NCBI GenBank assembly: GCA_019314425.1
Contig: JAFCZI010000097.1
Span: forward strand, 1-15,425
Direction of reading: 5' to 3'
DNA from: Deltaproteobacteria bacterium
GTDB taxonomy: Bacteria > Desulfobacterota > DSM-4660 > Desulfatiglandales > Desulfatiglandaceae
Length of the DNA: 15,425 bases
A program made the translations under genes and the position numbers. The first letter of the stretch is position 1; each line of letters begins with the position of its first letter. Under the pieces are notes generated by a model. It was not told the origin of the DNA. It did not search any database and saw only the letters and a program-made list of their open reading frames with translations. Positions 2,900 through 15,425 of this stretch are shown in pieces.

Positions 2900-4585
2900 T
2901 TGAGCCGCCCAAAAGTTATTTTTATCGCTCAGAATCAGCCTCTGAACAATGATGTTCAGTTGAGGCAGAGGATGGCGGGTGCGGTCGAGAGGGCCGCGCG
3001 GCAGTCACACCGGTTTCCGGGCCTGGATCTTTCCGCCATGCAAGCGCAGGTGCATGAAAATACCCGCGCTTCCCTGTTGTTTATGGGGGGGCGTTACATG
3101 GATCTGCCGGACCTCATGAATTATGTGAAGGCCGGTTGCCGCCCCATCGAAATTACCCCCGACAATGTGACCCGGCACTATTCCCTGGCCAATACGGTAA
3201 CCCTGAACGGGATTTACATGTATCAATACCTGTCGGCCCATGGATATGACCCCATCATCATTCAAAACTATGCCACGGACGACCTGGAAGGGCTGCTCCG
3301 GGAGTCCCCTCTGGCGGTCTGCATCTCATCAAATTTTATCATGATGAACGACATCAGGGACATGGCCGTTAGAATCAAAAACCTGGCGCCCGACGTCGCG
3401 GTCATTGCCGGCGGCATGCTGGTCAAAAAGGTCATGCACGCCGGGGAGAATCTCACCCAAGGGACCCTCGAATTCCTCTCCACCTTCCACGAAAAAGTGG
3501 ATGCGTTTGTTGTGGAGGCAAAAGGGGAGCAGAGCCTTGTGAAATTGCTGGGCGCCATTAAGAACGGCGACGATTTGAGCACGATCCCCAATCTGGCCTG
3601 TTTTGATGAAAAAGGCCGTGTAACCTTCACCGTCCGGACCGAGGAAGAGATTCACATGGACGAGACGGCCATTGACTGGGGCAAAATTCCAAAAGCCTAT
3701 CTGCGCCACACCCTTCCCGTTAACAGCAGCCGGGGATGCTATTACCGGTGTCGTTTCTGCACGTACCACTGGTTGTTTCCCAAAGTCCATTACCGGTCTC
3801 CGGATGTCCTTCAACAGGAGCTGAAAGCCATCAACAACCTGGGGTTTGTGAGGCATGTGCGGTTTACAGACGACAACTTCACCGCCAGAAGTGACCGGAT
3901 TAAGGCGGTTCTGGAGATGATGATCCATGAAAAATTTTCATTTTCGTGGTCGTCATTTGCTCGCGCAAGCGCCTTGACGCCTGAGCTCGTAAAGCTGATG
4001 AAGCGGTCGGGATGTGAATTTCTGGATCTGGGGCTGGAATCGGGAAGCCAGACTATCCTGGACAATATGGATAAACAGCTGAGCCGGGAGCAATCGCTGG
4101 AAGCCATCCGCATGCTCAACGATTACGGCATCATCAGCCGTGGCAGTTTCATTATCGGTTACCCGGGGGAAACGCGTGATACATTCCTTGAAACCATTGA
4201 TTTCATAAACGACAGCGGCCTTCCTTATTATCAGCCCTATCTCTTCTATTACACCGCAAATACCCTGGTGCATGAGGAGCGAAAAGCGCTGAATCTGAGA
4301 GGTCTCGGTCTGGCATGGGCCCATGAGACCATGGATTCGGTAGACGCCTCCCGGCTTTTGATGCAAATGATTGAGCGGATTCCCGAAAGCTTTACCGATG
4401 GCCATTCCTATGTGGAAGAAATCTATAAATCGCTCAGGGGTGACGGGTATGCACCAGAGGATATCCGGGAACTGTTCAGGGTGAAGCGGCAGTTGCAGCT
4501 GACCTTGAGGGAACATCCCTCCGCCGGTCCATTCTCTCCGGAGATAGCACCCATACTCGAGAAGATGGGAGGGCTGATCCGCTAA
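2900..4585 (+). CDS. B12-binding-type radical SAM protein
   Basis: This is a 561-residue protein starting at TTG, with GAGGT 11 bases upstream. Residues about 90-190 form a Rossmann-like cobalamin-binding-type domain (GIYMYQYLSAHGYDPIII, then AVCISSNFIMMND, then VAVIAGGML). The DxHxxG motif of base-off cobalamin enzymes is not visible, as in many B12-radical SAM proteins. The radical SAM core starts at residue about 270: SSRGCYYRCRFC carries the [4Fe-4S]-binding C280, C284 and C287. It is followed by RFTDDNF, the FLDLGLESG strand and GSFIIGYPGET. The first about 90 residues and the last about 100 are family-specific. B12-radical SAM enzymes methylate, ring-contract or rearrange unreactive carbons; the substrate here is unknown. 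The stop overlaps the next gene's start by one base, so the RimK-like ligase is very likely its functional partner. Confidence 0.9.
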   Translation: MSRPKVIFIAQNQPLNNDVQLRQRMAGAVERAARQSHRFPGLDLSAMQAQVHENTRASLLFMGGRYMDLPDLMNYVKAGCRPIEITPDNVTRHYSLANTVTLNGIYMYQYLSAHGYDPIIIQNYATDDLEGLLRESPLAVCISSNFIMMNDIRDMAVRIKNLAPDVAVIAGGMLVKKVMHAGENLTQGTLEFLSTFHEKVDAFVVEAKGEQSLVKLLGAIKNGDDLSTIPNLACFDEKGRVTFTVRTEEEIHMDETAIDWGKIPKAYLRHTLPVNSSRGCYYRCRFCTYHWLFPKVHYRSPDVLQQELKAINNLGFVRHVRFTDDNFTARSDRIKAVLEMMIHEKFSFSWSSFARASALTPELVKLMKRSGCEFLDLGLESGSQTILDNMDKQLSREQSLEAIRMLNDYGIISRGSFIIGYPGETRDTFLETIDFINDSGLPYYQPYLFYYTANTLVHEERKALNLRGLGLAWAHETMDSVDASRLLMQMIERIPESFTDGHSYVEEIYKSLRGDGYAPEDIRELFRVKRQLQLTLREHPSAGPFSPEIAPILEKMGGLIR

Positions 4586-5475
4586 TGCATGTCGCTATCC
4601 TCAGCGTAAGAGATAAGACGTATCACCCCAACAGCCGGCTTATGGCGGCGGCGGTTGAAATGGGGCACAGGATTTCACTCATCCATACGCGGGACGGTCT
4701 TTCCTGCATTCAGGGGGGGCGGCAGGCGGTCCGATTGCCTGAGCCTGATTTTCCGGAGACTGATCTGCCGGATATCCTCCTGCCGAGAGTGGGGGCGACC
4801 ATCAACGACTATGCCCTGTCGGTGGTGAGGCATTTCGCGCTTTCCGGAACCCGGGTGGTCAACGGATTTGAATCAATCCTGATGGCGCGAAACAAATTTA
4901 TGGGCCTTCAACGCCTGGCAAAACATGGCATCAGCGTTCCTGATTCATACCTGGTTGTAACGCTGGAAGGTTTTGAACGGGCTGTGGAACAGTTGGGAGG
5001 GTATCCGGTTGTGGCCAAAATGCCCGGCAGCCGCCAGGGTGACGGGGTGATGCGGGTCGAAAACCAGGCCACCGCTTCCTTTGTTATGAACAATCTCATG
5101 GACAATGCCCGGGGGATTCTGGTTCAGGAATATATTCCGCCTGAAGGGCGCACCGACATCCGCGCTTTTGTGCTGGGAGACCGGGTTTTAGGCGCGATGG
5201 CCCTGGAACCGGGTCCGGCGGATTTCAGGACCAACATCCATCTCACGGGACAGGGACGGATGATAACGCTCAGTCCCGACCTTTCGAAACTGGCGGTGCG
5301 GTCATCCCGCGCCCTCGGCCTTGAAATTTCGGGTACGGATATCATCATCGATAAAAATGGTTTTCCCAACGTGATTGAGGTCAATTATTCGCCGGGATTC
5401 CGGGGGCTTGAAGAAGCTACCGGCATCAATATTGCGGAGCGGATTATTCATTATGTGACAAAGCCGCAGGGTTAG
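4585..5475 (+). CDS. RimK-like ATP-grasp carboxylate-amine ligase
   Basis: This 296-residue cytoplasmic protein is collinear with RimK/LysX enzymes (about 300 residues) over its whole length. MHVAILS and PRVGATINDYA (67-77) match the RimK N-terminal domain. The ATP-grasp region has VVAKMPGSRQGDGV (142-155, K145), VQEYI (180-184), DIRAFVLG with D191, DFRTNIH (213-219), the metal-binding D252, and VIEVNYSPG (263-271, E265 and N267). It closes with ATGINIAERII. Such enzymes use ATP to make an acyl-phosphate and join a carboxylate to an amine, for example adding glutamate to a protein or peptide. It is coupled to the radical SAM gene by a one-base overlap (TAATG). Its last codons and stop fall inside the repeat that begins at 5462, so the C-terminus may have been trimmed. 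The amine and acid substrates are unknown. Confidence 0.9.
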   Translation: MHVAILSVRDKTYHPNSRLMAAAVEMGHRISLIHTRDGLSCIQGGRQAVRLPEPDFPETDLPDILLPRVGATINDYALSVVRHFALSGTRVVNGFESILMARNKFMGLQRLAKHGISVPDSYLVVTLEGFERAVEQLGGYPVVAKMPGSRQGDGVMRVENQATASFVMNNLMDNARGILVQEYIPPEGRTDIRAFVLGDRVLGAMALEPGPADFRTNIHLTGQGRMITLSPDLSKLAVRSSRALGLEISGTDIIIDKNGFPNVIEVNYSPGFRGLEEATGINIAERIIHYVTKPQG

Positions 5476-5570
5476 GTTTTAAGTTTTAGGTTTTGGGTTT
5501 TAGGTTTTAAGTTTTTCAGCCCATGAGCTTCTTATTTTTTGTGATAGAACACCAGGCGATAAGGTACTAA
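5462..5570 (+). repeat. TTTTRRG heptamer plus 59-bp core repeat, copy 1
   Basis: It starts AGCCGCAG, then runs a degenerate heptamer: GGTTAGG, TTTTAAG, TTTTAGG, TTTTGGG, TTTTAGG, TTTTAAG (5470-5511). A 59-bp core follows (5512-5570) that matches 9531-9589 at 52 of 59 positions. The core includes ATGAGCTTCTTATTTTTTGT and ends AGGTACTAA. It fills the gap between the two ATP-grasp ligase genes. Its first bases supply the last codons and TAG stop of the upstream gene, and its last two bases form part of the downstream AAGGAG. Confidence 0.8.
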
Positions 5571-5574
5571 GGAG
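5569..5574 (+). promoter_or_regulatory. ribosome binding site of the GshB-like gene
   Basis: AAGGAG lies 5 bases before the ATG at 5580. Its first two bases belong to the end of the heptamer-core repeat, so the repeat boundary and the translation signal overlap. Confidence 0.75.
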
Positions 5575-5579
5575 TTTTT

Positions 5580-6557
5580 ATGCATATCGGTTTTTTGATG
5601 GATCCGCTTACGTCCATAGATCCCGAAAATGAAACGACCAGCTATCTCATGTATGAATGCAACCAACGGGGGCATACGGTCTACTTCCTGGAACCTCACG
5701 ACATTTATATTCGGGAAAATGAGGTCGTGGCCAGGATGCGCAATATTTCGGTATCACCGAATCTGTCCATGAAAAAGTATTGGCGTGCGTTGATACGCTG
5801 TCTCAAGAAAGATGAACTCATATTTGAGACCATCGCGGATCTGGACGCGCTCTTTTTGAGAAAAAATCCGCCCATGGTTTATCAAACCGTGGAGTTTTTG
5901 TCATCGGTCAGTGACAAAGTGTTTATGATCAACAACACGACGGGCCAAATCAGGGCCAACAGCAAACTCTATATCCTCAATTTCCCGGAAATCATTCCTG
6001 AGACCCATGTGTCTCGTGATCCGGCACGCCTCAGAAAAATCATCAATAATTTCGGCGGCGCCATGGTGGTAAAGCCCCTTCAACGCTACGGTGGCGAAGG
6101 GGTGATTAAAGTGAGCCTCAAGGACCAGGAGAATCTGAATTCCCTGATTAACTATTATGTGCGGGCCTATCGGGCATATCCGGAGCGGGAACCCATTATG
6201 GTCCAGGAATATCTGGAAGAAGTTCAGATAAAAGGTGATGTGCGGATTCTTCTGCTCAATGGGGAAATTGTCGGCGCCATGCGGCGAAAACCGAGACAAG
6301 GGGATTTTCGAACCAATATCCATGCGGGCGCCCGGGCCTATAAACATGACATTACGGATCAGGATCGCGCCATCTGCCGGGCGATCCGGGACAGCTTGAG
6401 AAAAGAGGGCCTGTTTTTCGTAGGGGTTGACGTGATCGGTGATAAGATGGTAGAAATCAACTGTCTGAGCCCCGGCGGTATTCCGCGTATTAACCGTTTG
6501 GATGATGTGAAAATCGAAGTTCAGGTGATTGATTTCATTGAACAAAAGGTTTCGTAG
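5580..6557 (+). CDS. GshB-like (glutathione synthetase-type) ATP-grasp ligase
   Basis: This 325-residue protein is close in length and order to bacterial GshB (about 316). MHIGFLMDPLTSI matches the GshB start, ADLDALFLRKNPP (86-98) matches its DLDVILMRKDPP region, and PEIIPETHVSRD (136-147) matches the PETLVTR region. The ATP-grasp core has VVKPLQRYGGEGV (163-175, K165), VQEYLEEV (208-215), GDVRILLLNGEIVGAM (219-234), DFRTNIHAG (242-250), FVGVDVIGD with D284, and VEINCLSPGGI (291-301, E292 and N294). GshB joins gamma-glutamylcysteine to glycine. A nearby GshA is not seen, so another acid-amine ligation is as likely. It shares DFRTNIH with the RimK-like neighbour, suggesting two consecutive ligation steps. 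Its TAG stop lies at the left edge of a CGTAGGGGC repeat. Confidence 0.88.
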   Translation: MHIGFLMDPLTSIDPENETTSYLMYECNQRGHTVYFLEPHDIYIRENEVVARMRNISVSPNLSMKKYWRALIRCLKKDELIFETIADLDALFLRKNPPMVYQTVEFLSSVSDKVFMINNTTGQIRANSKLYILNFPEIIPETHVSRDPARLRKIINNFGGAMVVKPLQRYGGEGVIKVSLKDQENLNSLINYYVRAYRAYPEREPIMVQEYLEEVQIKGDVRILLLNGEIVGAMRRKPRQGDFRTNIHAGARAYKHDITDQDRAICRAIRDSLRKEGLFFVGVDVIGDKMVEINCLSPGGIPRINRLDDVKIEVQVIDFIEQKVS

Positions 6558-6623
6558 GGGCGGACCTCGGGTGTCCGCCTTGATTATACCGGATGCACAT
6601 TACGGGCGAATGGTTGTTCGCCC
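6553..6623. repeat. CGTAGGGGC-type double hairpin repeat, copy 2
   Basis: GGCGGAC (6559-6565) pairs with GTCCGCC (6573-6579), and GGGCGAA (6604-6610) pairs with TTCGCCC (6617-6623). The start CGTAGGGGC-GGACCT is shared with 1578-1591. TAG at 6555-6557 is both part of the repeat and the stop of the GshB-like gene. The hairpins could act as a weak transcript end or mRNA stabiliser, but no T-tract follows. Confidence 0.75.
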
Positions 6624-6645
6624 CCAACCCAAAAATGCAACAGAA

Positions 6646-6787
6646 GAGCCAATTTCAAAATGTTCAATTTTGTTCGAGGTCAAGGAAGGCGAAAATTTTA
6701 ACCGCAGGAATATATTGGATATTTCGAGGATTAAAATTTTAGTCTGACGCAGAGATCGGGCAAAAGGGGGCGTTTTGAAACTGGCTC
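6646..6787. mobile_element. 142-bp long imperfect palindrome (MITE-like), in front of the transporter genes
   Basis: The left 32 bases (starting GAGCCAATTTCAAAATG) match the inverse of the right 32 bases (starting GAGCCAGTTTCAAAACG) at 24 positions. A second inner inverted repeat pairs AAAATTTTAA (6692-6701) with TTAAAATTTT (6731-6740). AGAA flanks both ends (6642-6645 and 6788-6791), which may be a 4-bp target duplication or chance. There is no credible ORF. It ends 17 bases before the substrate-binding protein start, so any promoter for the transporter would have to lie in or beyond it. Confidence 0.7.
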
Positions 6788-6804
6788 AGAAGAAAGGATG
6801 ATAA

Positions 6805-8434
6805 ATGCCCCGTATGAATGGAAAAACAAACAGATTTTTTGGTGGGTGGGTCACGATGAGTTTGTGTGTCCTGATGTTGATGGCGGGCTTTCATTTTTCA
6901 GTATCGAAGGCTTCCGCCGCAGATACGCTTAAACTGGGTGTTTTGCAGGAACCCAAAACCTTGAACATCTGGAGCGCCGGTGATCGCTGGTCACTGAAAA
7001 TCCTGGGGTTAATCTATCAACCCCTGTATGTGAGGGATCCCAAGACGCTGGATTTGGTTCCCTGGCTGGCGGCGGCACCGCCTGAGTTTGATTCAAAAAA
7101 TCTCTGCTACACGGTTAAACTGAGGCCCGCCAGATGGTCGGACGGCACGGAACTGACCTCCGAAGACGTGGCCTTTACCGGACGGATAATTCAGGAATTC
7201 AAAATCCCCAGGCATATTTCCAAGTGGCAGTTTGTCAAAAGAATTGAAACCCCGGACAAACACACCATAAAGTTCTACCTGGAAAGCCCCCAAGCCATCT
7301 TTGTCTCTCGAACGCTCACCACGCCTATTGTGCAGAAAAAGCAATGGGAGGAAATAATCCAAAAAGCCAAAGGAACGGAAAAACCCCTTCGAACGCTTTT
7401 GCGGCACAAGGTTAAGAAACCCATAGGCATCGGTCCTTTTACGTTGAAGGACTGGCGGTCGGGCGCCTATCTTTACGTGGTAAAGAACGAGGATTTTTTC
7501 GGTTCCGGCAAGACCATCGGCGGGCACCTTTTAGGGCCTCACATCGACGGGATCATTTTCAAGATCTATGGCACGTCGGATGCTGCTATTCTGGCATTGA
7601 AGAAAGGGAGCATCGATATGTTCTGGTGGGGAATTCAGCCGGGATATATGGAAGACCTGAAAGCGAACCCCGATATGGAGGTCTTCACCAACGAAAAAAG
7701 TGCGCCAGGGGTATGGTTTGAAAATGTATTCCATTGTTCCTCCCGGCAACACGTTCTGGTGCTGCCCGGACGTTCCGAAGTACGGCGTGGGGCTTAGCCG
7801 GGAAGGCCGCATCAAAAAGGCCTACCGGATCCTTTCGGATGCCGGTTACACCTGGCAGATACCCCCCATCGACAACTCGGGGAATGTGGTTAACGGCGAA
7901 GGCATTATGCTGCCTGACGGGAAGCTCATGGGGAAATTCACCATCCTGACGCCCCCGGCCGATTACGACCCCCATCGCGCCATGTGCGGCATGATGATGC
8001 AGGAATGGCTCCGGATGCTGGGGATTCCCGCATATTCCAAACCCATGGCCTTCGGAGCACTGATCGAACAGGTCCAAGTGCGCAGGGATTTTGATACATT
8101 CATCCTGGGGTACGGCAGCTTGTCGCTGGATCCCGATTATCTGCGAAACTTTTTTATTTCAACAAACGACAAGCGCAGAGGCTGGAACATGAGCGGGTAT
8201 AACAATCCCGCATTTGATAAAATTGCGACCCAATCCGCGAAAACCATGAACCGGGACGAACGGCGAAAACTCATCTGGGAAATGCAGAAGATTGTCATGG
8301 GTGATGTGCCCTATATGCCCCTGTATAATCCAAAACTGATTGAGGCCGCCCGGAAAGGCAAATTCACGGGGTGGGTTCAAATGATTGGTGGCGTTGGCAA
8401 CTTGTGGTCTTTTTGTCAGTTGAAACCGCTTTAA
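6805..8434 (+). pseudogene. family 5 ABC substrate-binding protein (Dpp/Opp type), disrupted
   Basis: The N-terminal part is 6805 to about 7702 and the C-terminal part is about 7703-8434, in another frame. ATG 6805 has AAAGGA 6 bases upstream. Residues 1-39 are a signal peptide: basic start, hydrophobic GWVTMSLCVLMLMAGF, then SASAA-like cleavage near ASA/ADT, so export to the periplasm is expected. KLGVLQEPKTLNIW, RWSDGTELTSEDVAFTG and IGIGPFTLKDW are typical of peptide-binding proteins. The second part has VPPGNTFW, DFDTFILGYG, SLDPDYLRNFF, RGWNMSGYNNPAFDKI and PYMPLYNPKLIEA. The frames meet around 7700-7705. The usual block with the pattern FN...PF.D..VR.A...AIDK (about 35-40 residues) is absent between KSA and QGYGLKMYS. 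This is an out-of-frame internal deletion, or a sequence or assembly error. As written, the product would stop at 7797 after 330 residues and lack the C-terminal lobe. Confidence 0.85.
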
Positions 8435-8452
8435 TTTAGGTATCAATTTTCT

Positions 8453-8478
8453 CGTTCCCACGCTCCAGCGTGGGAACG
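8453..8478. repeat. REP-like perfect palindrome
   Basis: CGTTCCCACGC (8453-8463) and GCGTGGGAACG (8468-8478) make a perfect 11-bp stem with loop TCCA. It lies between the substrate-binding protein and the first permease. This motif is a widespread dispersed bacterial repeat in my recollection. It lacks a T-tract, so mRNA stabilisation or attenuation between the binding protein and permeases is more plausible than termination. Confidence 0.75.
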
Positions 8479-8515
8479 GCTTGAGGTCTAACACCTTATG
8501 GTTCGGTAAAGCGCC

Positions 8516-9493
8516 ATGGAATTAAGAAGATATATTCTCCGCAGGCTGGTCCAGATCACCATCATTTTTTTTGTGATCCTTACGGTGCTCTTCCTGCTGT
8601 TCCGCCTGGCCCCGGGGGACCCGGTTTCCCGAATGGTGGACACGGATATGACGCCCGAGGATTCACAGCGCCTCATTGTTCAGCTGGGGCTGGACAAACC
8701 CCTGGGCGTACAATACCTCATATATCTCAAGAATTTTTTTAGGGGTCAATTCGGGTATTCATTCCACTACGGAGAACCGGTGGTGGACATCATCTGGGCC
8801 CGGCTTCCCAATACGGTTCTGCTCTTTACCACCAGCATTATTTTATCCGCCCTGGTGGGTATTTTCCTGGGGAAGATTGCGTCCTGGTACAAGGGGAAAA
8901 GGACCGACAGCATCATGACCGTGGGGGCGCTGGTGACCCATACGCTCTTCCTGCCTTGGCTCGCGTTGATCCTGATTTGGGTTTTTGCTTATAAATTCAG
9001 TTGGTTCCCCATTAACGGCATGATTTCGGAGGAGGTATGGCTGGACCCTGACAGCGGTGTCATCGCCAAAGCGCTGGATGTTATGTACCATATGGTGTTG
9101 CCGCTCTCCACCCTGTTTCTGATCCATTTCGGCGCTTATCTCTTAATCATGCGAAGCGCCATGCTGGAAACCCTCAAAGAGGATTATATCCTCACTGCAA
9201 GGGCCAAGGGCCTGGATGAAAAGACGATTCGGAACAAACACGCCGCCCCCAACGCGGCGCTTCCGGTGGTCACCAGCGTGGGCCTCAGCCTGGCTTTTTC
9301 CATCAACGGGGGGGCGCTGACGGAGACGGTTTTCACCTGGCCCGGCATTGGCCGGGAATTGGTGTTTTCGGTCAGTCAGAACGATTACCCTTTGGCGCAG
9401 GCCTCTTTTCTGCTGATTGCCATTGTGGTTTTGCTTGCCAACCTGGTGGTGGATGTTCTGTACGCTTATCTTGATCCAAGAATCAGATACTAA
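8516..9493 (+). CDS. ABC transporter permease, DppB/OppB type
   Basis: This 325-residue inner-membrane protein has the standard DppB layout. An N-terminal membrane helix (about 9-30) is followed by the family signature FRLAPGDPV (29-37) and the periplasmic loop with QLGLDKPLGVQY and NFFRGQFGYS. Further helices lie at about 99-120, 137-160, 192-213, 249-266 and 297-316. The EAA-type coupling loop reads YILTARAKGLDEKTIRNKHAAPNAALPV (split near 224-251), and LTETVFTWPGIGR is the usual C-terminal signature. It forms the membrane channel with the DppC-type protein encoded downstream. The ATG has only a weak ribosome site (GGTAA about 9 bases upstream); translation may depend on upstream reading. 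All expected domains are intact, in contrast to the binding protein before it. Confidence 0.93.
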   Translation: MELRRYILRRLVQITIIFFVILTVLFLLFRLAPGDPVSRMVDTDMTPEDSQRLIVQLGLDKPLGVQYLIYLKNFFRGQFGYSFHYGEPVVDIIWARLPNTVLLFTTSIILSALVGIFLGKIASWYKGKRTDSIMTVGALVTHTLFLPWLALILIWVFAYKFSWFPINGMISEEVWLDPDSGVIAKALDVMYHMVLPLSTLFLIHFGAYLLIMRSAMLETLKEDYILTARAKGLDEKTIRNKHAAPNAALPVVTSVGLSLAFSINGGALTETVFTWPGIGRELVFSVSQNDYPLAQASFLLIAIVVLLANLVVDVLYAYLDPRIRY

Positions 9494-9501
9494 CGCGGCA
9501 G

Positions 9502-9589
9502 AGCCGCAGTTTTAAGTTTTAGGTTTTAGGTTTTTCAACCAATGAGCTTCTTATTTTTTGTGACAGAAAACCAGGTAATGAGGTACTAA
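9502..9589 (+). repeat. TTTTRRG heptamer plus 59-bp core repeat, copy 2
   Basis: AGCCGCAG (9502-9509) is followed by heptamers TTTTAAG, TTTTAGG, TTTTAGG (9510-9530) and the 59-bp core (9531-9589), with 52 of 59 positions equal to 5512-5570. This copy has three heptamers against six in copy 1, so the tandem part varies in length. It fills almost all of the gap between the two permease genes. Confidence 0.8.
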
Positions 9590-9601
9590 ACGGAAACCGT
9601 C

Positions 9602-10534
9602 GTGACAGCCGCTCCTTCAAACAATAAAATAAACGCCCGCGAGCGCTATCCATGGCTCAATTCATTCCTGGATGGGTGGGCCATATTCAAACAGAACCTT
9701 CTGGGTCGAATCGGCCTGACCCTGCTGATCATATTTGCGTTGATGGCCATTTGCAGTTACATCCCACCGCTGATCAACCCCATGTATAACCCCATGACCG
9801 GTGTGGATCCGGATATTACCTGCTGTATGTCACCCAGTTGGCGGCACTGGCTGGGAACGGATTTCATGGGACGGGACATCTTCAGCCAACTCCTGGCGGG
9901 CGCACGTGTCGCCTTCATGGTCGGTGTTTCCGCTGCCGTCATGAGTGTGGTCCTGGGAACGGCCATCGGCATGACCGCCGGGTACATGGGAAAATTCATA
10001 GATACCCTGCTCATGAGAATGGCCGACATGATCATGGTGATGCCCACCTTGTTGTTTGTTTTGATCATCTCTTCCGTTTTTGGCCAGCTTAGCATCTGGA
10101 CCATTGTTATTATCATCGCCCTGTTCCGGTGGCCGGGTGTCTCCCGGATGATTCGCGGTCAGACCCTTTCTCTTAAGCATCGCCCGTTTATCGAAGCGGC
10201 CAAAGTGGCGGGGGCCGGCCATTTCCGGATTATCTTCAGGCATATCATGCCCAATGTGTTGCCCCTGGCGTTTTTGTTCATGACATTCCGGGTGACGTCC
10301 GCCATTATTATTGAAGCGTCGCTGGCATTCTTAGGGTTTGGTGATCCGGGAACCGTCAGTTGGGGGATGATGTTGCAGTGGGTCTGGAAAACCGGCTATA
10401 TGTTCAAAGCCCCTTACTGGCTTCTTCCGCCGGGGATTTGCATTTCATTGATTACCCTCTCTTTTTATATGCTGGGTCGCGCCATGGATGAAGTGTTGGA
10501 CCCGAGACTGCGAAAGGAGGACCAGACAGATTAA
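9602..10534 (+). CDS. ABC transporter permease, DppC/OppC type
   Basis: This 310-residue inner-membrane protein starts at GTG, with no strong ribosome site close by. The N-terminal cytoplasmic stretch precedes a membrane helix at about 33-56. HWLGTDFMGRDIFSQLLAGAR (split around 82-102) is the DppC signature GTDxxGRDxxSRxxxGAR. Several helices follow, including about 103-125 and 140-175. The coupling loop is FIEAAKVAGAGHFRIIFRHI with MPNVLPL, then EASLAFLGFG and SWGMML. The C-terminus DEVLDPRLRK is typical. It pairs with the DppB-type permease. Its stop codon directly abuts the ATG of the next ATPase, whose ribosome site lies in its last codons. Confidence 0.93.
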   Translation: MTAAPSNNKINARERYPWLNSFLDGWAIFKQNLLGRIGLTLLIIFALMAICSYIPPLINPMYNPMTGVDPDITCCMSPSWRHWLGTDFMGRDIFSQLLAGARVAFMVGVSAAVMSVVLGTAIGMTAGYMGKFIDTLLMRMADMIMVMPTLLFVLIISSVFGQLSIWTIVIIIALFRWPGVSRMIRGQTLSLKHRPFIEAAKVAGAGHFRIIFRHIMPNVLPLAFLFMTFRVTSAIIIEASLAFLGFGDPGTVSWGMMLQWVWKTGYMFKAPYWLLPPGICISLITLSFYMLGRAMDEVLDPRLRKEDQTD

Positions 10535-11485
10535 ATGGCCCTACTTGAAGTTGACAATTTAAGCATCGGGTATCACACCAAACAAGGCTACCTCAAGGCC
10601 GTGGATGGGATCTCCTTTTCCCTGTATGAGGGGCAAACCCTCGGTTTTGTGGGTGAATCGGGCTGTGGAAAAACCACCATCGGCATGGCCCTGATGGGAT
10701 TGATGCCCCCCAACGGTTCTATCCGGCAGGGACGTATTCTCTTTGAAGGGCAGGATCTTCTGGAAATGACGGAAGCTGAACGAAGAGCGACGCGTTGGAG
10801 CCGGATTGCCATGATTTTTCAGGCTGCCATGAATGCTATGAACCCGGTGCAGCGCGTGGGGGATCAGGTTGCGGAAGCCATTTTGGTGCATAACCGGGAG
10901 GTGGAAAAGGACGCGGCCTTAAGCCAGGTGGAAGCGCTGTTCGATCTGGTGGGAATCCCCCGGGATCGCTTGAGAGATTACCCCCACCAATACAGCGGCG
11001 GGATGAAACAGCGGGCGATTATCGCCATGGCCCTGGCCTGCCGGCCCAGGTTGATTATTGCGGATGAGCCCACCACCGCGCTGGACGTTATTGTTCAGGA
11101 TCAGATTCTATCGGAAATCAAGGCGCTTCAGAAAGAGTTCAATATCGGTGTTATCTTTATCTCACACGACATTTCCATTGTCGCTGATATGTGTCAGAAT
11201 ATCGCGGTGATGTATGCCGGGCAGATGGTGGAATACGGTTCCCGGGAGGCTATTTTTGAATCACCCGTACATCCCTACACCAAAGCACTGCTCTCTTCAT
11301 TCCCGACGATTACCGGCGAAAAAAGTGATCTGATCCCCATCCCGGGGGAACCCCCCAACCTGATCCATCCCCCTTCAGGGTGCCGGTTTGGAGCGCGTTG
11401 TCCTGAGGTTTCCCCAGCCTGCTCAGAAGCGCCCCGATGGATCCTGATAGGGCCCGGGCACAAAGCGCTCTGTTGCCATTGCTAG
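10535..11485 (+). CDS. ABC transporter ATPase, DppD/OppD type
   Basis: This is a 316-residue cytoplasmic ATPase. Walker A is GESGCGKT (40-47), the Q-loop is IFQAAMN (Q96), the signature is YSGGMKQR (153-160) with Tyr in place of the usual Leu, Walker B is LIIADEP (173-179), and the H-loop is H211. The C-terminal peptide-transporter extension is present: [21 protein letters not shown] and further cysteines to the end (CCHC), the region that binds an iron-sulfur cluster in some DppD-type proteins. ATG follows the preceding TAA with no gap. AAGGAGG sits 14 bases upstream, far for a ribosome site, so translational coupling is likely. It works as a heterodimer with the next ATPase. Confidence 0.93.
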
Positions 11486-11520
11486 AATAAAAGGGACATT
11501 GGAATTCACCCGAGGTCAGC

Positions 11521-12504
11521 ATGAATACGAACGGTAAACCGGCCCTCGAAATCAGGGACGTCAGCAAAATTTACAAAGCCAAGGTGGGTCTTCTTTCCGG
11601 CCGTGGCAAAGATGTGGTGGCCCTGGATCGGGTCTCCTTTGAGATTAACAAGGGTGAAATTTTCGGACTGGTGGGGGAAAGCGGCAGCGGGAAAACAACG
11701 GCGGGCCGCTTGATTGTGAGCCTGGAGGAGACTGACTCCGGTGAAATCCTTATGGATGGCCAACCGGTTACGGGGTTGAAAGGAAAAACACTCAAGAAGT
11801 TTCGAAGCAAGGCTCAGATGATATTCCAGGACCCTTATCAATCCCTCAATCCCCAACGGTCTATTCTGGACACGGTTGCCGAGCCTTTGAACATTCATCG
11901 CGTGGGGGATGCCGCCGGCAGAAAAGATCGTGTCCGGGAGGTCCTCAGCTCCGTAGGCTTGTCGCCGCCGGATGATTTTCTCTATCGTTACCCCCATCGA
12001 CTCAGCGGCGGGCAGCGCCAGCGGGTGGCCATTGCACGGGCCATGGTGCTGAACCCCGAGTTTGTCATTGCCGATGAGCCCACGTCCATGTTGGATGCGT
12101 CCATTTCCGCCCAGATATTCAACATCCTTTTGAAGATGCGGAACGAGCTGGGCGTCACCCAGCTTTTTATTACACACAGCCTTGCCGCAGCCCGCTATCT
12201 GTGCGATCGGATTGCCGTCATGTACCACGGCCGCCTGATGGAAGTGGGCCAGGCCGACCAGGTTATCCGGAACCCCAAGCATCCTTATACCAAAGCGCTC
12301 ATTGATGCCCTTCCCAAATTCGGTCATAGCGGTGACCGAAAGCGGTACGGCACGCTTTTGACCCGGGAACGAACGGATGCTCAGGATGTGGGGTGCAATT
12401 TTTTTTCGAGATGCGCCCTGGCGCAGGAAAACCGGTGCAATCTGGAAAAGCCTGTTTTAGAAGACAATGGAAACCGGAATATGGTGGCTTGTTTTCTGCG
12501 CTAG
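11521..12504 (+). CDS. ABC transporter ATPase, DppF/OppF type
   Basis: This is a 327-residue cytoplasmic ATPase, the second subunit of the pair. Walker A is GESGSGKTT (52-60), the Q-loop is IFQDPYQSLNP (101-111), the signature is LSGGQRQR (161-168), Walker B is FVIADEP (181-187), D-loop SMLDAS and H-loop H219 follow. The QDPYxSLNP stretch separates DppF/OppF types from DppD types. A short insert KVGLLSGRGK (21-30) near the start is common in OppF proteins. The C-terminal extension has CNFFSRC (cysteines near 292 and 298). GAGGT lies just upstream of the ATG. The next gene starts 29 bases after its stop, which supports one transcript with the ATP-grasp gene. Confidence 0.93.
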   Translation: MNTNGKPALEIRDVSKIYKAKVGLLSGRGKDVVALDRVSFEINKGEIFGLVGESGSGKTTAGRLIVSLEETDSGEILMDGQPVTGLKGKTLKKFRSKAQMIFQDPYQSLNPQRSILDTVAEPLNIHRVGDAAGRKDRVREVLSSVGLSPPDDFLYRYPHRLSGGQRQRVAIARAMVLNPEFVIADEPTSMLDASISAQIFNILLKMRNELGVTQLFITHSLAAARYLCDRIAVMYHGRLMEVGQADQVIRNPKHPYTKALIDALPKFGHSGDRKRYGTLLTRERTDAQDVGCNFFSRCALAQENRCNLEKPVLEDNGNRNMVACFLR

Positions 12505-12533
12505 TTATAACGTACCGTTTTATCCAGGCCGTC

Positions 12534-13991
12534 ATGTTCATTCACAACATACATCAGATCAGCACCCTTCTTCAATCGTTGCCCGGAACCTTCGTGGGGG
12601 TGGGGATGACCGCATTTTCCCGAATTCTCCCCGCATCCTTTCTGACGTCTTACCACATTGTTGCCCTTCACAAGACGGGAGACCTGCCGCTGCTGCGGAA
12701 AAAAGCACACGTTTTCTGTCTTGAGGAGGAAACGGAAAACCCGAACCTGACACCGGGGCAGAATTCCGAGGGTCTTCTGATGCACCCCCGAACCAGGCGT
12801 TTTCTGGATGGCATTTCCCGGCCAAAATATTTTTTTTTATACCAGGATTATCCTGAGTTGAGATCCGCTGCCGAGGCCAATGGATGGATTTTGTTGGCCA
12901 ATCCACCGCAACTTCGCCAAACGGTTGGAAAAAGAAAGTTTTTCAAAAAAATGGCCGCTGCGCTGGGCCTCCATCAAGCGCCTGGCGGTATTTATCCCAT
13001 AGCGGTCATTCACGACAAGGGGTATGAAGCGTGGCGCCGGTCGTTGGGACCCGCTTTTGTGGTTCAGCTCCCGGAAATCGAACAGGGTGGCGGCAGGGGA
13101 ACATTTTTTGTGCGGTCTAGGGAAGACTATCGGCAGCTTCAAGGCAGGCTTGCGGAAAACCGGTGGCGGGATACCCCGCTGGAATCGATTTCGGTTCATC
13201 GGTTTCTGGACGGAATACCGGCGAGCATGGTGGTTTGTGTGACCCGTCACGGCACGCTGGTGTCTGCCCTGCAACGGCAGCTGCTGGATCTTCCCTATGG
13301 CAGGGGTTTTGCTGAAGATGGCGTGTTTTGCGGCCATGCCTGGGGTGTTTCCCCTGGGTCTGAGGCCGTCCGGAAATCGGCGTTTGAACAAGCGTGCCGC
13401 ATTGGCGACTTTCTGGGGACCCTTGGGTACAAAGGGATTCTGGGCATTGATTTCATTGTTCAAGAACAGCGGGGGGCGGCCTGCCCCATTGAAATCAATC
13501 CGCGTCTGACCGGCGCCCTTCCCATGCTGTCATTGCGCCATCTTGAATCAGGTATTGTGCCGCTGGAAGCCTTTCATATACTGGAATTCCTGGGGCTTTC
13601 GTACCAAATAGACCGGGATGCGCTGAACCGGCAGTACGCCGAACCCGTGCGGGGAAGTCACTTATTGCTGTTCCGATCTCCCATTGTGGAGGAGAAAGGC
13701 ATCGTCCCTCTGAGAGCCGGTCTTTACGAATATGAACCGGTGAACGGGGGCTATCGTTTTTTAAAGGAGACACTGGAATACCCGGACATTCAAAGCGAAA
13801 ACCAGTTCATCCTGTCGGATGGTCCCAGGCTTACCGCCGATAAAACATTGCATGGTCAGGACTCCCACAGCCGCTTGTGCCGGCTTCTTTTCTCTTATCC
13901 GATAATGGACATGAAAGGCGCCCTGTCGCCACAGGCACTTCTGGCAGCAGAATGGGTGGGTGGTAAAGACATGAAAGGCGATGCATTGTGA
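12534..13991 (+). CDS. divergent ATP-grasp domain enzyme
   Basis: This 485-residue protein is predicted to be cytoplasmic. Residues 1-120 form an alpha/beta N-terminal domain (FVGVGMTAFSRILPASF, RPKYFFLYQDYPELR). Residues about 128-335 are ATP-grasp: the lid KRKFFKKMAAALGL, FVVQLPEIEQGGGRGTFFV with a glycine-rich loop (185-190), a hinge around SISVHRFLDGIPASMVV, GYKGILGIDFIVQ with D306, and CPIEINPRLTGALPML with E320 and N322. The last 150 residues match no family I recognise. It is closer to the carbamoyl-phosphate-synthase/biotin-carboxylase style of ATP-grasp than to the two ligases upstream. An ATG at 12393 is also open, but that start would run 112 bases inside the ATPase gene. ATG 12534 is preferred despite a weak ribosome site. 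It overlaps the downstream hydrolase gene by 4 bases (GTGA), so ligase and hydrolase are probably made together. Confidence 0.85.
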   Translation: MFIHNIHQISTLLQSLPGTFVGVGMTAFSRILPASFLTSYHIVALHKTGDLPLLRKKAHVFCLEEETENPNLTPGQNSEGLLMHPRTRRFLDGISRPKYFFLYQDYPELRSAAEANGWILLANPPQLRQTVGKRKFFKKMAAALGLHQAPGGIYPIAVIHDKGYEAWRRSLGPAFVVQLPEIEQGGGRGTFFVRSREDYRQLQGRLAENRWRDTPLESISVHRFLDGIPASMVVCVTRHGTLVSALQRQLLDLPYGRGFAEDGVFCGHAWGVSPGSEAVRKSAFEQACRIGDFLGTLGYKGILGIDFIVQEQRGAACPIEINPRLTGALPMLSLRHLESGIVPLEAFHILEFLGLSYQIDRDALNRQYAEPVRGSHLLLFRSPIVEEKGIVPLRAGLYEYEPVNGGYRFLKETLEYPDIQSENQFILSDGPRLTADKTLHGQDSHSRLCRLLFSYPIMDMKGALSPQALLAAEWVGGKDMKGDAL

Positions 13992-14758
13992 GACTTCCAT
14001 TTGTTATTTCTCTGCCCCATTGCTCCGGTGAAATACCCGCGCGGATTCGGCCCGACGTTGTTCTGACCCAGGCGGAAATGGTCGATTCGGTTGATGTGGG
14101 CACCCGGGAAATTTTCGGATGTCTGCCGGCTGAGCGAATTCTGTGCGCGCAATGGAGCCGGCTTGTGGTGGACTTAAACAGATCCCCCGACCAGCGTGGC
14201 GCCAAAGGGCTGGTTGTACGGGTAGACTACCATGGTCGCACGGTGTACGGTCCGCACGCGGCCCCCGATGAAAAAGAGATCCAAGATCGCCTGACGGCAT
14301 ATTATCAGCCTTATCACCGCCAACTGCAAGCGTCCCTTCAACTGCCTAAGATTAAAGGCCTTCTGGATTGTCATTCCCTTAAGGGCATCGGCCCCCCCGA
14401 GGCCCCCGATGCAGGAAAGAAGCGGAAGGATATCATTCTGGGCAACAATGGCGGCCCGAATGGAGAGGTAAACCCGGTCCGGGGGGAAATCATTTGCCCA
14501 TCGGCGCTGCTGAACTTCATGAAGCAGGTATTTGAGGATGCCGGTTTTTCCGTATCCTTGAATGTTCCCTATGCGGGCGGATTTATTGCCACCCATTATG
14601 GGCGCACTTTGGTGGCCAACGGCCAAATGGCCCTTCAAATTGAGATCAATCAGGGTCTCTATGTGGACCCTCTGACGGAAAAAATCATGCCGTCAAAAGT
14701 AACCGATGTCAGAACCGGAATTTTTGAATGTCTTCTGAAGGTCGGGAAGGCGATCTGA
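13988..14758 (+). CDS. N-formylglutamate amidohydrolase-family hydrolase
   Basis: This 256-residue protein starts at GTG, inside the stop of the preceding gene. Family motifs appear in order: SLPHCSGEIP with H11 (8-17), LVVDLNRSP (59-67, D62, N64, R65), GLLDCHSLKGIGP (124-136, D127 and H129, likely metal ligands), LNVPYAGGFIATHYG (191-205) and ALQIEINQGLYVD (215-227). Members cleave the amide of N-formyl- or N-acyl-amino acids with a bound metal, as in the HutG-type step of histidine breakdown. No hut gene is present. The tight coupling to an ATP-grasp enzyme suggests it trims or recycles an amide made in this cluster instead. The metal site appears complete. Confidence 0.9.
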   Translation: MRLPFVISLPHCSGEIPARIRPDVVLTQAEMVDSVDVGTREIFGCLPAERILCAQWSRLVVDLNRSPDQRGAKGLVVRVDYHGRTVYGPHAAPDEKEIQDRLTAYYQPYHRQLQASLQLPKIKGLLDCHSLKGIGPPEAPDAGKKRKDIILGNNGGPNGEVNPVRGEIICPSALLNFMKQVFEDAGFSVSLNVPYAGGFIATHYGRTLVANGQMALQIEINQGLYVDPLTEKIMPSKVTDVRTGIFECLLKVGKAI

Positions 14759-14847
14759 GGGCTTCGGGAAAATGCTTTTTGGGTTTTTCCTTTTCCTTAC
14801 CCTTTTTTTTTGATATTCTTCAGGGAATGAAAATTTTTGCACATATC

Positions 14848-14854
14848 AGGAGGG
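14848..14854 (+). promoter_or_regulatory. ribosome binding site deciding a GTG start
   Basis: AGGAGGG is 5 bases before GTG 14860. An in-frame ATG at 14827 has an AGGGA almost touching it, which is too close, and would put a charged stretch ahead of the signal peptide. The GTG start is preferred. Confidence 0.7.
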
Positions 14855-14859
14855 TCATT

Positions 14860-15425
14860 GTGTCCAATACATCGAAATCCATAAAGAAAACAGTTGTTTT
14901 GTTTTTGATGGCCTTTGTTTCGGCCCTCTTTTTACCCATGGCGACATCGGCCCTTGAACAAAACGTTACCAATTCCCTGAGCATGGAATTTGTTCTGATA
15001 CCGGCCGGAACTTTCACCATGGGCAGTCCGCCGGATGAGCCGGGCCGAAAACGGGATGAAGTGGCGCACCCGGCGAAAATCAGCCGACCTTTTTATTTGC
15101 AAACCACTGAAGTGACGGTCAAGCAATGGCGGCTCATTATGGGAAAACCCTTTTTTGGCGGCAAAAAAGGATCTGAGGATATGCCGGTGGTAAGGGTTTC
15201 CTGGCAGGACTGCACGAAGTTCATAAAAAAGCTGAACGCCCGCAATGACGGTGTTTACCGGCTTCCCACCGAAGCGGAATGGGAATACGCGTGCCGGGCC
15301 GGCAATACGACTGCCTACGGCATAGGGAACAGCATCGATTGCGACCATGCCATGTATGCCAACAATACCCTCAAAACCGAGGATTGCGTGGATGTCGTTA
15401 AATCAAAAGGATTGCCCACGGACCA
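14860..15425 (+). CDS. secreted formylglycine-generating-enzyme/SUMF1-domain protein (partial, runs off window)
   Basis: 188 codons are visible and the 3' end is missing. Residues 1-31 are a signal peptide: SKSIKK, then VVLFLMAFVSALFLPM, then ATSA before LEQ, so export is expected. From residue 39 on, it follows the FGE-sulfatase domain: SLSMEFVLIPAGTFTMGS, then PAKISRPFYLQTTEVTVKQW, then MPVVRVSWQDCTKFIKKLN, then the hallmark YRLPTEAEWEYACRAG (133-148). True formylglycine-generating enzymes convert a sulfatase Cys to formylglycine with copper and two C-terminal cysteines. That part lies outside the window, so catalysis cannot be judged; many bacterial members are non-catalytic or act in other modifications. 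A 101-base gap and its own strong ribosome site suggest it is separate from the cluster upstream. Confidence 0.88.
   Translation, partial: MSNTSKSIKKTVVLFLMAFVSALFLPMATSALEQNVTNSLSMEFVLIPAGTFTMGSPPDEPGRKRDEVAHPAKISRPFYLQTTEVTVKQWRLIMGKPFFGGKKGSEDMPVVRVSWQDCTKFIKKLNARNDGVYRLPTEAEWEYACRAGNTTAYGIGNSIDCDHAMYANNTLKTEDCVDVVKSKGLPTD

Follow-up and report, generated by a model that had tools for sequence, protein, structure and literature searches.

A conserved cluster of ATP-grasp ligase and Opp-type importer genes in Desulfobacterota, a candidate pathway for a small peptide-like metabolite

Multi-ligase operons for peptide metabolites are reportedly the subject of a survey made by Aravind and co-workers in 2009. 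Such ATP-grasp operons are already known as a kind: those described by the same group, in passages of PMC2922099 and PMC4431377, hold modifying enzymes, peptide-binding proteins and PP-loop amidotransferases next to several ATP-grasp ligases. According to passages of PMC8070244, the pathway for N-acetylglutaminylglutamine amide (NAGGN; AsnO, Ngg) uses an acetyltransferase/peptide ligase and an asparagine-synthase-like amidotransferase. Related single enzymes are the glutathione synthase GshB (E. coli, 1GSA), the RimK alpha-L-glutamate ligases (5ZCT, 7QYR) and the cobalamin (B12)-type radical S-adenosylmethionine (SAM) enzymes of PhpK type (TIGR04479). Here we analysed a window of 15,425 nt, the whole of contig C79 (JAFCZI010000097.1) from the draft genome of a member of the Desulfobacterota (G000; 2.8 Mb, 475 contigs, 80% complete). 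Positions 2900–14758 carry ten successive plus-strand genes (Table 1), counting once a substrate-binding protein (SBP) gene that lies in two pieces. An earlier note on this DNA had correctly described the common strand and the overlapping or abutting junctions, and had counted nine genes. The radical SAM and RimK-like genes overlap by 1 nt, no base separates the importer genes PerC and AtpD, and the gene for a third, divergent ATP-grasp protein (AG3) overlaps by 4 nt that for a hydrolase of the N-formylglutamate amidohydrolase (FGase) family.

We propose, as a reading with about an even chance of being correct, that the cluster encodes a conserved route to a small peptide-like metabolite, with successive ATP-grasp ligases and a dedicated Opp-type importer. 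That the cluster is one functional system is very probable. Gene order was compared in 42 loci from 31 genomes of the window's family, chosen for matches to the GshB-like ligase or to AG3. Genes were scored as successive when at most 2 kb apart, positions close to a contig end were disregarded, and Opp-gene matches below 45% identity were excluded. The counts leave out L102–L106, L111 and L029, which is the same stretch of the delta proteobacterium NaphS2 (G004, contig C667, ADZZ01000144.1), a naphthalene degrader of the window's genus, as L033; a GshB fragment (G032:C157) was kept in the family GshB survey without its neighbourhood. GshB followed RimK at 29/29 testable places, with a PP-loop gene in between in L092 and L093, and the SBP gene followed GshB at 29/29. 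The importer genes kept their order equally well (SBP to PerB 26/26, PerB to PerC 27/27, PerC to AtpD 24/24, AtpD to AtpF 25/25), AG3 followed AtpF in 27 of 28 cases and FGase followed AG3 in 17 of 21, the four misses marking FGase as movable. The block was also found in another family, f26 (L084, L085), with 56–58% identity in GshB and 29–30% in AG3. Since pair order is kept across the family and the block recurs in f26, the genes are not a chance row. The genes therefore belong together, as had been suggested, and the scattering of homologues that the earlier note named as grounds for abandoning its idea, with ligases and transporter rarely adjacent, is the opposite of what is seen in the family. 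Of the joint conservation that it had proposed as a check, the part concerning the ATP-grasp genes stood; a defining role for the radical SAM gene was not supported, FGase is movable and the modules part outside the family.

Two junctions in the window are widened by copies of a dispersed repeat (5477–5570 and 9509–9589; 88% identical over 81 nt), which has at least 40 copies in the genome. The same gaps in NaphS2 measure only 10 and 12 nt and lack the repeat, indicating that the window copies are insertions. As insertions of a dispersed element, they are no markers of operon borders. The second copy adjoins the sequence TACTAA, which also ends the repeat.

The GshB-like ligase has the fold of GshB, matching 1gsa, and the ATP-grasp catalytic motifs, and it scored 185.8 bits against PF02955. 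The GshB-like enzymes of the cluster form a separate clade. Canonical GshB enzymes of the same phylum passed both glutathione synthase models, NF003573 and TIGR01380, in 5/5 cases, whereas TIGR01380 was passed by none of the four cluster-type enzymes tested (261.9 against a cut-off of 299.05 for the window protein). After the Mg-binding Asn, 29/29 cluster-type enzymes carry SPGG and 5/5 canonical enzymes SPT, in a loop that we take to contact the substrate. In a set of 120 proteins of this group (P0121–P0240), those that public records name are called glutathione synthase; in the 38 of the set included in alignment A7, P298, G299 and G300 are invariant. Glutamate-cysteine ligase (GshA) models, positive in control genomes, had no match in 46/46 (PF04262) and 43/46 (PF04107) genomes of the family co-occurrence set, the remaining three matching PF04107; neither model matched in G000, which is 80% complete. 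By its own clade, its SPGG loop, its TIGR01380 shortfall, the missing GshA partner and its operon with RimK and Opp genes, the cluster enzyme differs from E. coli GshB. Judged by sequence, it is not an ordinary glutathione synthase, and the glutathione synthase label on this group is probably a widespread misannotation.

The GshB-like gene was found in 29 of the 46 family genomes, representing 14 of 23 genera, with a mean column identity of 83% in the protein. Between species, RimK, AG3 and FGase vary far more than do GshB and the permeases. Among 395 genomes of the phylum, 38 had a GshB match at 1e-60, 25 of them at an identity of at least 56% and 13 at 39–43%. The 13 are canonical-type matches, and none of the five neighbourhoods inspected among them held Opp, RimK, NTT, FGase or GNAT genes. 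By contrast, when all 17 loci outside the family with GshB identity of at least 56% were inspected, 16 had at least one of these five in the fetched stretch. Some genomes have the cluster, or its GshB-like gene, two or three times over, namely G002 (L030, L031) and G041 (L092, L098, L099). In L100 (G032:C93) the GshB-like gene shows a tandem partial duplication at the contig end, possibly an assembly artefact.

Further partners, beyond the genes that the earlier note could see, emerged from co-occurrence in the 46 genomes. The gene for an NTT-like protein, an ATP/ADP-translocase-like cNMP-binding membrane protein with TLC, HEAT and cNMP domains, is present in 29, of which 27 also have the GshB-like gene, while 15 genomes have neither (Fisher p 3e-8, kinship ignored). 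A GNAT gene is present in 26 genomes, always with a GshB-like or AG3 match (p 3e-8 against the cluster), and a PP-loop protein, for which Pfam matches were sub-threshold only (Asn_synthase 13.2 against 21), in 12, all cluster-bearing (p 0.004). A weak AG3 match in G031 (E 1.8e-4) was excluded as AG3 from this comparison. In the window's genus, the NTT, GNAT and PP-loop genes are found away from the cluster's contig and would be overlooked if only neighbourhoods were compared; in G000 the GNAT gene is on contig C316. The stand-alone GNAT gene of this genus adjoins genes that by eye resemble those for heterodisulfide-reductase subunits (L132, L134, L144, L146, L150). Elsewhere in the phylum the set is arranged differently. 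The usual form in f21 is a pair of facing operons, rSAM2-RimK-Opp-NTT and GshB-FGase (L115, L117, L119), with variants in L113, L114, L116 and L118; f86, in which one protein bears the name Geothermobacter ehrlichii, and f27 have the GshB-like gene with NTT-like, GNAT and PP-loop genes and without Opp. The f26 cluster is longer, with genes for an L-amino-acid-ligase-like ATP-grasp, a CP_ATPgrasp_2 protein and AsnB (L084, L085, L086), as well as a class III aminotransferase in L085 and L086, a make-up resembling that of a biosynthetic gene cluster.

The radical SAM protein scored 103.9 bits against PF04055 and 18.4 bits, below the cut-off of 32.1, against the B12-binding domain PF02310. Its nearest NCBIfam model is the PhpK P-methyltransferase TIGR04479 (312.4 bits over residues 89–499). 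Assignment as a P-methyltransferase was rejected, since the cut-off of that model is 600; named homologues carry mixed labels, and no phosphonate gene was found in a search confined to the ten genes. The earlier note had treated the radical SAM protein as a defining part of the set. The window type occurs in 21 of the 46 family genomes (in G014 at just 34% identity), against 29 for the GshB-like gene; among the 10 cluster genomes that lack it, 8 have the GNAT domain in a frame of more than 500 aa, fused to another radical SAM-type protein. Excluding the GNAT frames of G010, G011 and G021, which were not classed, the window type accompanies the stand-alone GNAT in 13 of 14 genomes and the long form, which in G018 comprises B12-radical SAM and GNAT domains, in 1 of 9. 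This alternation of window and GNAT-fused types indicates that a B12-radical SAM step is common but exchangeable.

The other enzyme classes named in the earlier note (radical SAM, RimK-like, divergent ATP-grasp and FGase family, besides GshB-like) were confirmed by profile matches. The RimK-like protein has both the N- and C-terminal Pfam domains and passed TIGR00768 (191.9 against 143.4), like the RimK alpha-L-glutamate ligases; it differs from them in its operon partner, a GshB-like ligase, and assignment as a ribosomal S6 ligase was rejected, with 163.3 against the cut-off of 331 of the equivalog model NF007764. AG3 matched PF02655 (31.5 against 23.2), and its GGGxG and ExNxR positions (GGGRG and EINPR in the window) are invariant in 20/20 aligned rows. 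A mechanically called GTG start at 12393 was discarded for this gene; close relatives have 485 aa, most likely corresponding to the start in Table 1. At E 1e-3, and with weak matches included, 37 of 99 relatives gave an AG3 match, as did 5/5 genomes of the genus. The FGase-family protein has the motifs PHC, DCHS and QIE and passed only the broad model PF05013 (151.8 bits); as HutG it was rejected (TIGR02017 equivalog, 73.8 against 278.75).

The importer had been described as a full set of peptide-type ABC transporter genes. In this assembly the two Opp/Dpp permeases and two Opp ATPases are intact and a complete SBP is lacking, its frame being broken by a deletion into two open reading frames (ORFs; Table 1). 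Sequence comparison showed that four loci of the genus, taken from three genomes, retain the missing DNA. A single SBP ORF of 562–598 aa is present in 20 loci of relatives, among them both L029 and L033, which are one NaphS2 stretch, and L042, which is truncated by its contig end. The deletion may be real or an assembly error. The nearest solved relative of the NaphS2 SBP by sequence is the oligopeptide-binding AppA (1xoc, 130 bits), and the SBP resembles NikA, but also AppA and GsiB. The Opp-type system is a putative peptide importer.

Homology, motifs, folds, gene content and order, co-occurrence and the separate GshB-like clade, as computed here, are consistent with a scheme of which we infer the substrates, step order, cap, reuptake and direction of use. 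The RimK-like ligase would activate a carboxylate and couple it to an amino acid. The GshB-like ligase would extend this product, a dipeptide rather than GshA-made gamma-Glu-Cys, by a small amino acid, and AG3 might form another amide bond that varies by lineage. In many lineages the B12-radical SAM enzyme could methylate or otherwise change a building block. A GNAT encoded elsewhere may cap the amine, the FGase-family hydrolase may take the cap off or cut an amide during turnover, and the Opp transporter would re-import the released product or fragments; the NTT-like protein is a candidate further transporter or sensor in the same system. An amino-acid conjugate, the product suggested in the earlier note, would fit the enzyme classes.

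More tentatively, the clade labelled glutathione synthase in anaerobic relatives of the window genome, found in the NaphS2 family and as far away as Geothermobacter ehrlichii, may be the core of an undescribed and widespread GshA-free small-peptide metabolite system, having its own importer, NTT-like protein and GNAT cap with lineage-specific B12-radical SAM and ATP-grasp decorations, and its product a new thiol-, solute- or signal-like peptide of the phylum. If so, many members of one phylum would share a metabolite that has gone undescribed, hidden by the glutathione synthase label on its core enzyme. Searches of open-access papers turned up no description of this gene set. The GshB-SPGG/RimK/Opp/NTT combination is not among the operons described in the excerpts of PMC2922099 and PMC4431377, and neither 'Desulfo' nor 'glutathione synth' occurs in the main text of a graspetide survey (PMC8939145). 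A search of the cluster gaps for precursor peptides with ATG starts gave 570 small ORFs in 76,630 bases; among the 12 largest families of these, the multi-genus ones overlie the SBP, FGE or cyclase gene and were taken, by position, as shadows. The system is open to enzymology and metabolomics, since it occurs in NaphS2, which is in culture, and since the named species G. ehrlichii has its GshB/NTT/GNAT/PP-loop form. The locus L099, described below, is a natural variant suited to testing gene roles.

Several observations weigh against this proposal. The N-cap is suggested by the GNAT and FGase classes alone. NF003573, a glutathione synthase equivalog, was passed by three of the four cluster-type enzymes, including the window protein (286.1 against 272). 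AG3 is rare in the phylum (matched at 1e-15 in 16/395 genomes, of which 8 belong to the window's family), and its fold is compatible with almost any ATP-grasp. Outside the family, order was kept less often (GshB to SBP 9/21, RimK to GshB 5/11, AtpF to AG3 9/16, AG3 to FGase 2/7) and L116 has the GshB-like gene without any partner; within it, the row in L099 (G041) holds GshB, Opp and FGase but lacks both AG3 and RimK. As f86 and f27 lack Opp, the ligases and the importer could belong to separate pathways, and because the SBP is broken in the window genome, the importer may be dead there, if the assembly is not wrong. That the GNAT, NTT and PP-loop genes of the genus lie away from the cluster's contig also counts against the proposal, as does the lack of an NTT or PP-loop match in G000 (80% complete). 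Pfam gave no radical SAM match for the G016 protein joined to GNAT; degenerate versions of the fused form can thus occur. Finally, the cluster-negative genomes are mostly entire genera, a kinship that the Fisher tests ignore.

It is possible, though unlikely, that the product is a compatible solute in the form of an N-acylated di- or tripeptide, its leak recovered by Opp, in a system that would be NAGGN-like in its working and not homologous as a pathway. In the passages of PMC8070244, NAGGN synthesis likewise involves ATP-dependent peptide ligation, a GNAT, an asparagine-synthase-like amidotransferase and a hydrolase, and the restriction of the PP-loop protein to cluster genomes, the AsnB gene beside the f26 cluster and the reuptake transporter would suit such a solute. 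Those passages describe NAGGN synthesis without a radical SAM step, however, and this cluster adds Opp, RimK/GshB-type ligases and a B12-radical SAM protein. The RimK-like and GshB-like proteins scored just 20.8 and 18.3 against TIGR03103, with a cut-off of 569 that no protein of the window reached, and the Asn_synthase match of the PP-loop protein is sub-threshold.

In staphylopine-type systems, an Opp-type transporter imports a metallophore together with its metal. By analogy, the ligases and radical SAM enzyme might make a secreted peptide natural product or metallophore that Opp imports, with metal in the latter case, although we regard this too as improbable. A B12-radical SAM protein of either type in most cluster genomes, the biosynthetic appearance of the f26 cluster with its extra ligases, AsnB and aminotransferase, the NikA-like similarity of the SBP and the variability of RimK, AG3 and FGase would all be in keeping with it. 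The GshB-like protein, in contrast, is unusually steady for a secondary metabolite, its presence in 14 of 23 genera is more like core metabolism, and no exporter or outer-membrane receptor is encoded among the ten genes, the flanks not having been searched for one.

A salvage operon, in which Opp would import peptides, FGase cut them and the ligases rebuild cell material, is a poorer candidate still. Transporter and FGase do stand beside the ligases in most family loci, but three or more ligases are many for this purpose, and f86 and f27 keep the GshB-like gene with NTT, GNAT and PP-loop genes in the absence of Opp. Ordinary glutathione synthesis next to a peptide importer by chance is very unlikely: the fold, the public names and NF003573 favour it, and the TIGR01380 failure, the SPGG loop and the missing GshA contradict it.

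Table 1. Genes of the cluster and the gene that follows it in the window
Feature	Position	Strand	Remarks
B12-type radical SAM protein	2900..4585	+	561 aa; CxxxCxxC at residue 280 (CYYRCRFC)
RimK-family ATP-grasp ligase	4585..5475	+	296 aa
GshB-like ATP-grasp ligase, SPGG clade	5580..6557	+	325 aa
Opp/Dpp-type SBP, N-terminal part	6805..7797	+	frame lost at 107-nt deletion near 7704
Opp/Dpp-type SBP, C-terminal part	7700..8434	+	other frame
Opp/Dpp-type permease PerB	8516..9493	+	325 aa
Opp/Dpp-type permease PerC	9602..10534	+	310 aa
Opp/Dpp-type ATPase AtpD	10535..11485	+	Walker A GESGCGKT
Opp/Dpp-type ATPase AtpF	11521..12504	+	Walker A GESGSGKT
Third, divergent ATP-grasp AG3	12534..13991	+	485 aa
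FGase-family (PF05013) hydrolase	13988..14758	+	256 aa; not HutG equivalog
FGE-sulfatase-domain protein	14728..15425	+	runs off contig end; start uncertain; domain called on homologue L046:3300-4244

The FGE-sulfatase-domain gene comes after FGase in 12 of the 17 family loci with room for it, counting NaphS2 once, and its membership of the system is uncertain. At the other end of the window, positions 132–176 match the Rfam Acido-Lenti-1 RNA (40.3 bits, cut-off 37), in a stretch that has near-palindromic repeats at 40–59, 91–110 and 156–177. A 24-nt inverted repeat (1612–1635 and 2840–2863, 96% complementary) flanks a minus-strand PRAI-domain gene at 1654–2733, and this gene also precedes the cluster in NaphS2 and in two further genomes of the genus.

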